From positions 124,001 to 188,000 of the forward strand of contig JAFTSA010000008.1 in the NCBI GenBank assembly GCA_017461985.1: a stretch of 64,000 bases of DNA. The letters are read 5' to 3'. Origin of the DNA: Clostridia bacterium (GTDB taxonomy: Bacteria; Bacillota; Clostridia; Christensenellales; CAG-917). Positions 26,405-63,393 of this stretch are shown in pieces (position 1 is the first letter of the stretch; each line of letters opens with the position of its first letter). A program made the translations under genes and the position numbers. Below the pieces are notes generated by a model. The model had not been told where the DNA came from. It saw only the letters and a list, made by a program, of their open reading frames with translations, and searched no databases.

Positions 26405-26480
26405 GGGGGTGTAGCTCAACTGGTAGAGCGCTTGAATGGCATTCAAGAGGTAAGGGGTTCGACCCCCCTCATCTCCACCA
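26405..26480 (+). tRNA. tRNA-Ala (anticodon GGC)
   Basis: A 76-base cloverleaf with encoded CCA. Acceptor GGGGGTG pairs with CATCTCC (two G-T pairs), the D arm contains AGCTCAACTGGTAGAGC, the anticodon stem CTTGA/TCAAG encloses ATGGCAT (anticodon GGC) and the T arm is AGGGG-TTCGACC-CCCCT. Intact. Confidence 0.95.
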
Positions 26481-38857: not shown

Positions 38858-38930
38858 CACAGATTTTGTCACAATCATTAACAAAATTGTATTTTTTCTG
38901 CCAGTGAAAATAGGACTCGTAGGCATTTAT

Positions 38931-38977
38931 GCCGTAATAGTGAGGCGGGTGAGTTTGCTCATTCAGCCGAACGCCAC
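38931..38977. repeat. Dispersed repeat B, copy 1
   Basis: About 47 bases with core CGTAATAGTGAGGCGGGTGA, recurring with about a quarter of the positions changed at 63159-63203. The following region 38978-39132 holds further short palindromes (ACACACA-CTT-TGTGTGT, GGTGG-TGTAAA-CCACC) and no gene. Confidence 0.6.
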
Positions 38978-39135
38978 TTATGACTAGAGGTCATACACAC
39001 ACTTTGTGTGTGGGGGTGGTGTAAACCACCCTGTTTGAGTCTAATTGTCGACACAAATGAGAGACAATAAGTCGGACAACACAAGTTGCCGTCTTCTTTC
39101 TGCCAGTGGCTCTCTCACCAAACGCACTGCTCAAT

Positions 39136-39318
39136 CACGGCTCCGCCGTGTATGAAATCATTGGAAACAATGTATGCAATCAAAACATGGTTTTGTATGG
39201 CATCAAACCGAACGGCATATCACATACACGCAAGCGTGATTACATACAATGCTTTGCATTGATGGCATACCAATCCTTCGGTTTGGATAAAAAAAATCTC
39301 GTCCTTGCGAACGAGATT
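39136..39318. repeat. Hairpin array, copy 1 (eight short hairpins with 8-nt spacers)
   Basis: Consecutive stem-loops at 39136-39150, 39159-39172, 39181-39195, 39204-39226 (degenerate), 39227-39238, 39247-39261, 39270-39286 and 39295-39318. Six of seven gaps are 8 bases: TATGAAAT, TATGCAAT, TATGGCAT, then ATTACATA, ATGGCATA, ATAAAAAA. In the first half the spacers read TATGnnAT on the top strand, in the second half on the bottom strand. The last hairpin doubles as the tRNA-Val terminator. A second copy lies at 62936-63119 with stems kept and loops changed. Confidence 0.85.
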
Positions 39319-39324
39319 GTTTTT

Positions 39325-39401
39325 TGGTGGAGACAATAAGACTCGAACTTATGACCTCTACGATGTCAACGTAGCGCTCTAACCAACTGGGCTATGCCTC
39401 C
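39325..39401 (-). tRNA. tRNA-Val (anticodon GAC)
   Basis: A 77-base cloverleaf with encoded CCA. Acceptor GGAGGCA pairs with TGTCTCC, the anticodon stem CTACG/CGTAG encloses TTGACAT (anticodon GAC) and the T arm contains GTTCGAGTC. Intact; the hairpin array begins seven bases below its CCA end. Confidence 0.95.
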
Positions 39402-62502: not shown

Positions 62503-62766
62503 TCAACCGAATCCCATAAATTTCTTTCCAACAAGTTTGTCGTTGTAAAAGAGTCTCATAAACATGTATCCCATTTTTGCTTCAACGGGAATGTTTATGC
62601 CATAATTGTCAATATTGCCTCTGAGCGTAAATTGACCAGCAATATAGCTTACGTATCTGTCCACGACTTGCCCATTTATGACAAGTGAGCACACTTCGGG
62701 GGCGTTGAACACTTGAACAACATTGCCACCTTCTTTATACTCAATTTTCAGTCTACCTAAACCCAT
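62503..62766 (-). CDS. Small conserved-looking protein of unknown function
   Basis: An 87-residue protein starting MGLGRLKIEYKEGGNVVQVF, predicted all-beta with short strands (APEVCSLVINGQVVDRYVSY, AKMGYMFMRLFYNDKLVGKK). No membrane segment, signal or known motif. I chose the ATG at 62766 with GGAGGT upstream; the longer frame start lacks a ribosome site. It looks like a single-gene unit; it may be a small structural or binding protein. The name cannot be better resolved. Confidence 0.6.
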   Translation of the reverse strand: MGLGRLKIEYKEGGNVVQVFNAPEVCSLVINGQVVDRYVSYIAGQFTLRGNIDNYGINIPVEAKMGYMFMRLFYNDKLVGKKFMGFG

Positions 62767-62890
62767 AATTACCTCCTTTGTGCATATCAAAATAGGCAGT
62801 TTAATAAAGCAGAGCAACCTGCAAGAGCCGTTGAATTTACTATATCAAAAATAATAGGGAAAGTCAATATAGAAGTAATTTCTAAATTAA

Positions 62891-62921
62891 GCGCCAGCAG
62901 TGACTTGTCGCTGGTTCAGGG
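62891..62921. repeat. Dispersed repeat A, copy 1
   Basis: About 31 bases starting GCGCCAGCAGTGACTTGTCG, repeated with four changes at 63197-63227. Contains the palindrome-like CAGTGAC/GTCGCTG. Confidence 0.6.
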
Positions 62922-62935
62922 TGTGCAAATTAAAT

Positions 62936-63119
62936 CACGGCAAAGCCGTGTATGAAATCATTGTGAAACAATGCATGCAATCAAAACGGAGTTTTGTATG
63001 GCATCAAGCCAAACTAAACTATTCCATGCACGCTTGCGTGATTACATACAATGCTTTGCATTGATGACATGCCACTCCTTCGGCTTGGATAAAAAAATCT
63101 CGTCCTTGCGAACGAGATT
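62936..63119. repeat. Hairpin array, copy 2
   Basis: Same order as the array at 39136: stems at 62936-62950, 62959-62973, 62982-62996, 63005-63027 (degenerate), 63029-63040, 63049-63063, 63072-63088 and 63096-63119. Stem sequences of five hairpins are unchanged while loops differ (TCC to AAA, GAAA to TGAAA, ATG to GGA). Spacers TATGAAAT, CATGCAAT, TATGGCAT, ATTACATA and ATGACATG are again 8 bases. Next to it lies a truncated tRNA-Val 3' end. Confidence 0.85.
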
Positions 63120-63120
63120 T

Positions 63121-63143
63121 TTTTGGTGGACACTACTGACTCG
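63121..63143 (-). repeat. Truncated tRNA-Val 3'-end copy
   Basis: 18 bases (63121-63138) identical to the end of tRNA-Val(UAC) at 63314-63331, then ACTCG after one missing base, and nothing beyond. It sits directly beside the second hairpin array. Confidence 0.75.
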
Positions 63144-63158
63144 TAGCAAGTGAAACGC

Positions 63159-63227
63159 GCGTAATAGCGAAACGAGTGAGTTTACTCAAATAGTGAGCGC
63201 CAGCAGTGACTCGTCACTGGTTTAGGC
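63159..63227. repeat. Dispersed repeats B (copy 2) and A (copy 2)
   Basis: Copy 2 of repeat B (63159-63203, shared CGTAATAG, GTGAGTTT and CTCA blocks with 38931-38977) runs into copy 2 of repeat A (63197-63227). Two further short hairpins follow (GGCAC-GACA-GTGCC, CGGCAC-TT-GTGCCG, 63225-63254). Confidence 0.6.
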
Positions 63228-63271
63228 ACGACAGTGCCACGGCACTTGTGCCGTAGAGTCCAGTAGTCAAA

Positions 63272-63308
63272 CAAAACAAAAAGCCGAACACATTTGTGTT
63301 CGACTTTG
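63272..63308 (-). terminator. Terminator of tRNA-Val(UAC)
   Basis: Leftward TCGAACAC/GTGTTCG hairpin followed by GCTTTTTGTTTTG, six bases below the CCA end. Confidence 0.85.
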
Positions 63309-63316
63309 ATTAGTTT

Positions 63317-63393
63317 TGGTGGACACTACTGGACTCGAACCAGTGACCCCCTGCTTGTAAGGCAGGTGCTCTAACCAACTGAGCTAAGCGTCC
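63317..63393 (-). tRNA. tRNA-Val (anticodon TAC)
   Basis: A 77-base cloverleaf with encoded CCA. Acceptor GGACGCT pairs with AGTGTCC, the anticodon stem CCTGC/GCAGG encloses CTTACAA (anticodon UAC) and the T arm has GGTTCGAGTCC. Intact. Confidence 0.96.

Follow-up and report, generated by a model that had tools for sequence, protein, structure and literature searches.

Likenesses to the hairpin arrays considered here are found in several described systems. The intervening sequences (IVS) of 23S rRNA in Coxiella, Leptospira, and Brucella are elements at a structured-RNA gene that contain an S23 ORF and are bounded by inverted repeats (PMC4990558). However, the IVS lies inside 23S rRNA and is cut out by RNase III, whereas the arrays are located behind tRNA, tmRNA, or coding genes, with hairpins and a terminator, and many of them carry genes other than S23. 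S23 was described decades ago from rRNA intervening sequences, is widespread, and its structure has been solved, but its function is still unknown; mobility has been raised in its literature as one idea, unproven (PMC4990558). The family (PF05635) is homologous to Avd, an accessory protein of diversity-generating retroelements (DGR) (PMC10053308), from which the arrays differ in that a reverse transcriptase (PF00078) is absent from the source genome and from most array-positive genomes.

Integron attC cassettes are likewise one-direction genes separated by palindromic sites with strand-specific folding. The arrays differ in being anchored to tRNAs, in that no integron integrase could be tied to them, in cassettes that often have their own promoter, and in a site of 120–160 bp with six or so hairpins. 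REP/BIME sequences with RAYT (TnpA_REP) share short palindromes in opposite orientations, many copies, and an extragenic location, but REP stems are conserved and bear a GTAG/CGTC tag, whereas in the arrays the stems are free, the spacers are conserved, and the linked protein is S23. The direct repeat of a tRNA 3′ end known from tRNA-targeted integrative elements is matched here by 20 duplications of 15–23 nt with a break in the T-loop. In E. coli, the rtT repeats behind tyrT are units that each carry a copy of the tRNA 3′ end and arise by tandem duplication; the unit at 63124–63316 of our sequence resembles them in this respect. No hairpin array, S23, or cassette gene is known in the rtT repeats. 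Finally, non-CRISPR repeat arrays also lie beside nucleic-acid-binding genes, with “23S rRNA IVP” named in a figure legend, but these have hypervariable spacers between conserved repeats, and inverted hairpin arrays are not described in the main text (Altae-Tran et al. 2023). By analogy, the arrays would work like integron cassettes and IVS elements, and they appear to belong to none of the families tested because REP stems are conserved, no integron integrase could be tied to the arrays, and the IVS lies inside 23S rRNA.

Hairpin arrays at tRNA 3′ ends

The window (the whole stretch of 64,000 nucleotides analysed) comes from a 1.41 Mb genome in 10 contigs and holds two of its five hairpin arrays. 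A tRNA-Val 3′ end is present beside both, intact at copy 1 and truncated at copy 2, just as the sequence-only reading had noticed. The relevant features are as follows.

39136–39286 (−): array part of hairpin array copy 1 (full copy 39136–39321), spacer type as in copy 2
39289–39325 (−): terminator in the interval between tRNA-Val(GAC) and array copy 1, from direct sequence reading
39325–39401 (−): intact tRNA-Val, anticodon GAC; in the congener G002 the equivalent place is occupied by another insert
62503–62766 (−): candidate cargo of array copy 2, an 87-aa ORF that points away from it and has no Pfam family
62839–62867 (−): promoter-like site behind array copy 2 (TTGACT, 17 nt, TATAGT)
62936–63088 (−): array part of hairpin array copy 2 (full copy 62936–63119), spacer type TATGTAATC / GATNNCATAC, outer hairpin at 63072–63088
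63091–63124 (−): intrinsic-terminator hairpin in the interval between the tRNA tail copy and array copy 2, from direct sequence reading; the arrangement recurs in most arrays
63124–63143 (−): truncated copy of the tRNA-Val(UAC) 3′ end, with the break in the T-loop
63144–63316 (−): tail-duplication unit (period 193 bp) from the intact tRNA-Val to the truncated tail copy; it has a terminator of its own beside the tRNA
63317–63393 (−): intact tRNA-Val, anticodon UAC

On the minus strand, tRNA-Val(GAC) is followed by the terminator, the outer hairpin, two hairpins with TATGNNATC spacers, a variable centre, and hairpins with GATNNCATAC spacers. Copy 2 has its parts in the same order behind the truncated tRNA-Val end, which partially copies the 3′-terminal ~20 nt of the intact tRNA-Val(UAC) located 193 bp upstream in the sense direction. 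The two copies are 87% identical, and their alignment bears out that the stems of hairpins 1, 2, 3, 5, 6, and 8 are kept in copy 2 while loops differ (TCC/AAA, GAAA/TGAAA, ATG/GGA). Hairpins 4 (centre) and 7 (outer) of copy 2 are changed and have lost pairing. Since the alignment contains no compensatory change between copy 1 and copy 2, this pair in itself argues only weakly for selection on structure.

Two other repeats were seen near the arrays. A 31-nt direct repeat, 90% identical (62890–62920 and 63196–63226, 306 bp apart), brackets array copy 2 together with the truncated tRNA tail and is possibly a trace of insertion. The segment GAGCAAACTCACCCG..CTATTACG..TACGAGTC (minus strand), common to 38900–39010 and 63140–63230 of the window, ends in differing tRNA acceptor-like sequences and is a second small repeat family with tRNA 3′ ends.

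All five arrays of this type in the source genome lie beside a tRNA 3′ end (tRNA-Val(GAC), truncated tRNA-Val, tRNA-Cys, tRNA-Met, and tRNA-Leu(CAA)). A three-spacer pattern matches 16 of 151 genomes of the order, while the reversed control pattern matches none, a result far above chance; one of the 16 (G062) is a microsatellite and was discounted, leaving 15 real. The spacer architecture is present in more than 80 contigs of gut Clostridia and in at least 117 stretches of the named genome collection, a non-random sample consisting of Clostridia-type metagenome-assembled genomes, mostly from the ruminant gut. The observation made in the window is confirmed, and the same architecture extends far wider than the two copies; its occurrence over genomes of the order is sporadic, with few tRNAs per genome carrying an array. 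Rfam matches at gathering score in the window are confined to tRNAs and a THF riboswitch, leaving the arrays unmatched, and no description of such arrays was found in the open-access literature. Thus, the arrays are small DNA elements of gut Clostridia that form a large and apparently undescribed family, although, as novelty rests on these two sources, an account in a subscription journal or preprint may exist.

A typical array begins with a tRNA 3′ end, a terminator flush with the tRNA, about three hairpins, a centre, and about three hairpins with reverse-complement spacers, often followed by a built-in promoter and a gene reading away. Of 94 oriented bidirectional arrays, 56 have an intact tRNA or tmRNA 3′ end beside them and 15 more a truncated tail (at least 15 of 18 bases matching a known tRNA 3′ end, the shuffled maximum being 13), while 23 have no recognisable tRNA tail. 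In the main class, the tRNA points at the array, mostly from 48–66 nt away. One-way arrays, with a single spacer direction, are mostly found away from tRNAs, so the rule of tRNA ends is limited to the bidirectional form. The earlier suggestion that the element tracks tRNA ends therefore holds for bidirectional arrays but not for one-way arrays, nor for several S23-linked arrays behind protein-coding genes. In the genome G034, the terminator is common to the copies beside tRNA-Trp and tRNA-Ala, so the conserved unit seems to include it.

A scan of 212 tRNAs, some loci of which overlap, revealed a second copy of the last 15–23 nt of the tRNA within 900 nt in 20 distinct cases downstream versus one upstream. 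The break falls in or next to the T-loop, and a terminator-like hairpin then directly follows nearly all the duplicated tails. At one locus (L018), duplicated tails flank a complete array, but only some of the 20 duplications flank an array at all. Within the window, tRNA-Val(UAC) is one of these cases (period 193 bp), and tRNA-Ala at 26405–26480 is another, with a downstream 18-nt copy of its 3′ end with a period of 163, followed by a terminator. Such tail duplications can be what tRNA-directed integration leaves; by analogy with the E. coli rtT repeats, tandem duplication can produce them too. At another locus (L003), a pair of 43-bp repeats having a tRNA-like 3′ end lies behind tRNA-Gly (1302–1386), and two extra 3′-end copies with terminators, reminiscent of rtT units, lie behind tRNA-Leu (2090–2360).

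On the distal side, 74 of the 88 nearest ORFs point away from the array, and these are diverse. In 31 arrays, the last hairpin contains a −35 box, TTGATT, at a constant offset in its 3′ arm, with TATAAT 17 nt further on; any promoter-like site is found in 54 of 100 arrays versus 22 of 100 shuffled sequences. Five loci (L091, L110, L136, L169, and L179) contain same-direction stacked units of the tRNA-array-gene-array-gene kind. By inspection, the first distal ORFs encode S23 or a variety of other products, and no integrase was recognised among them.

The segment GAGTTCGAA...AAAAATATCTTTTTTGTAGCCCATAGACA also recurs between or next to stacked arrays at L024, L006, L008, and L112.

Stems, spacers, and the folded strand

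Pairing was scored in 283 distinct hairpins, each lying between neighbouring spacers; the counts ignore the kinship of sequences. The Watson–Crick fraction at pair positions 1–5 is 0.94, 0.95, 0.94, 0.94, and 0.89, while 0.59, 0.33, 0.30, 0.27, and 0.46 would be expected if the two sides were independent. The mean stem is 5.4 bp versus 1.6 in shuffled sequences, loops are mostly 3–4 nt, and all Watson–Crick pair types occur at stem positions. In G034, whose five copies have nearly constant spacers, whole stem words are swapped yet remain paired (AAAAC/GTTTT, AATAC/GTATT, AGCCC/GGGCT, AACAC/GTGTT); variation is thus concentrated in the stems and conservation in the spacers. Spacers are fixed within one array type and change together between types. 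Of the proposal that pairing is conserved while loops are free, conserved pairing is borne out across the family (89–95% Watson–Crick), though the window pair itself shows no compensation; across the family, however, fast change is seen in the stems and not in the loops only.

The residual mismatches are unevenly distributed between the strands. On the tRNA-sense strand, non-Watson–Crick pairs comprise 16 G·U and one A·C in the proximal half versus two G·U and 11 A·C in the distal half. When all bidirectional arrays are read on the GATNNNATRC strand, there are five G·U versus 28 A·C (p = 7e-5; 26 arrays versus 3), and one-way arrays show a bias in the same direction, with too few cases (2 versus 6). 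Because hairpins tolerate G·T and G·U better than A·C, spacer orientation seems to determine which strand folds, a different one in each array half. The flip between the halves argues against one transcribed RNA; alternatively, a strand-biased mutation process may be the source of the asymmetry. Folding a whole array as a single strand gives competing long-range folds, since its two spacer halves are complementary, and such folds were set aside as evidence.

At four loci of one genome (L231–L234, G121), mosaic arrays lie behind protein-coding genes, with spacers of several types (ATGATG, GTGATAT, GATGATATGC) in succession.

Linkage to S23 genes

The four-helix-bundle protein S23 is a recurrent first gene after the arrays. 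PF05635 genes are present in 14 of 15 array-positive versus two of 27 array-negative genomes, and in those two S23 sits behind other array types. In the source genome, S23 lies beside tRNA-Cys (C2:132549; PF05635, 68 bits; PDB relative 2rld), and 20 distinct S23 genes are located near arrays of the window's spacer group. Thirty S23 loci were taken from the order; the upstream sequence was long enough in 29, and inspection revealed a hairpin array there in every one of them, the two “negative” genomes included; for L189, L194, L195, and L210, which have the least array signal by automatic hairpin count, the calls rest on repeated spacers read by eye. Most of these arrays have other spacers (gttatat, gtgaagt, aatgaagc, gaaatcc, acgatg, gcgatat, gttatga, atgaatt, and more). 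Upstream of the 29 genes there are 5.25 hairpins per 400 nt versus 1.18 in shuffled sequence; a tRNA lies upstream within about 500 nt of 14, and several others follow a coding gene. At 30 control S23 genes of the phylum outside the order, hairpins are not in excess (1.03 versus 1.00), and no tRNA lies within 800 nt.

On a tree of 48 S23 domains, with spacer labels of about 14 rows assigned by eye, 17 changes of spacer type are needed (the minimum being 15 and the mean after shuffling 30.1, with none of 200 shufflings as low), against 24 changes of host label. The tree follows spacer type and not host, and S23 proteins that share a spacer cluster with strong support even when their bacteria belong to different families. 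The array and S23 thus appear to descend together, and physical linkage, not binding, may explain their concordance. In several genomes with ATATCAT-type arrays (for example, G034, G065, and G149), S23 of the matching clade was not found.

Candidate mechanism and rival explanations

Evidence bearing on mobility comes from the sporadic distribution and from comparing copies and congeners. In G034, near-identical sequence extends from the terminator to TATAAT in five copies; upstream, each copy has a different neighbour (a tRNA or tRNA tail in four, another kind of sequence in the fifth), and downstream each has a different gene. In three congeners, three different inserts occupy the place between the equivalent tRNA-Val and a common downstream remnant. 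On the other side, no excision, circular form, or transposition was seen, nor an empty site free of any insert. We infer that the arrays may be mobile and may be bound by S23. Counts of PF00589 and PF00078 do not separate array-positive from array-negative genomes, and neither a reverse transcriptase as the copying agent nor a tyrosine recombinase as the discriminating partner was retained; the source genome has one tyrosine recombinase, which may be of IntI or Xer type, on contig C2, apart from the contig of the window arrays. The structure-dependent copying process proposed from the letters finds no support in the form of reverse transcription because the source genome has no RVT_1 protein. 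Ordinary terminators alone, CRISPR, and DGR were also considered as the identity of the arrays and set aside.

The preferred reading, to which we give an even chance, is that small mobile elements or cassettes at tRNA and tmRNA 3′ ends, served by S23, use the arrays as cis-acting sites recognised by their structure. An S23 oligomer of each clade would recognise the spacer-hairpin sites of its cognate arrays as cruciform or single-stranded DNA, not in one transcript; for the source-genome S23, this would be the GTATNNNATC-reading DNA strand of its array. The oligomer would help a putative recombinase to move array-bearing DNA into tRNA 3′ ends, with the element giving the tRNA a terminator and its cargo a promoter. 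Copy 1 (array only) and copy 2 (array with the 87-aa ORF) would then be non-autonomous members, their cognate S23 being the one beside tRNA-Cys in the same genome. Tentatively, and with the balance leaning against it, S23 proteins could be the site-recognition factors of a new mobile-cassette class, each clade binding its own array in folded ssDNA or a cruciform and guiding insertion to where structured-RNA genes end, whether tRNA, tmRNA, or, if the idea is extended to the classical IVS, 23S rRNA. If true, this would explain the function of the S23/IVP family. The position of S23 behind spacer-matched inverted hairpin arrays in one bacterial order, often behind tRNAs, offers a concrete, testable ligand, and the arrays suggest that gut Clostridia possess a mobile cassette system with no Rfam entry.

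Several other explanations account for part of these data. The stacked one-direction units, the diverse first ORFs reading away, and the T-loop breaks of the tail duplications, as left by tyrosine integrases, would all be expected if the arrays were recombination sites of integron-like cassettes stacked behind tRNAs and moved by a host or phage tyrosine recombinase, with S23 as only the commonest cargo. This is unlikely, however, as all S23 genes tested in the order lie behind arrays and S23 clades match spacer types, too tight a link for chance cargo, and no integrase could be tied to the arrays. An RNA function is somewhat less probable again: the array might be transcribed, by tRNA read-through or as a leader of the downstream gene, and its hairpins might act as RNA, for instance by binding S23 or controlling termination. 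The strong covariation of stems and the homology of S23 to Avd would fit, but a terminator precedes the array, a promoter often follows it, and G·U tolerance on opposite strands in the two halves is unexpected for one transcript.

A terminator is found beside nearly every array, and the adjoining tRNA genes are strongly transcribed, so that an insulator of transcription or replication, an elaborated terminator region spread by gene conversion at tRNA ends, could also be imagined; with few tRNAs per genome carrying an array, sporadic occurrence over genomes, and the S23 linkage left unexplained, we regard it as very improbable. Least probable of all is a mutational by-product, palindromes kept perfect by replication template switching without function: loops of 3–4 nt and perfect stems are what quasi-palindrome correction produces, but the spacers are conserved, repeated, and inverted, the mismatches are strand-biased (28 A·C versus 5 G·U), and neither the fixed tRNA position nor the S23 linkage would be explained.

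Some further S23 loci were also inspected. At S23 matches in plasmids of Nostoc, Bernardetia, Aulosira, and Monoglobus, no arrays were found in those read. Two unannotated human-faecal “phage” contigs, L227 and L229 (MT835815.1 and MT835590.1), have S23 behind hairpin arrays, one of them beside a tRNA. Upstream of a second S23 gene in the source genome (L187, C5:22798–26100) are hairpins of the gttatat type, and downstream of it lies a one-way array whose spacer is the same.
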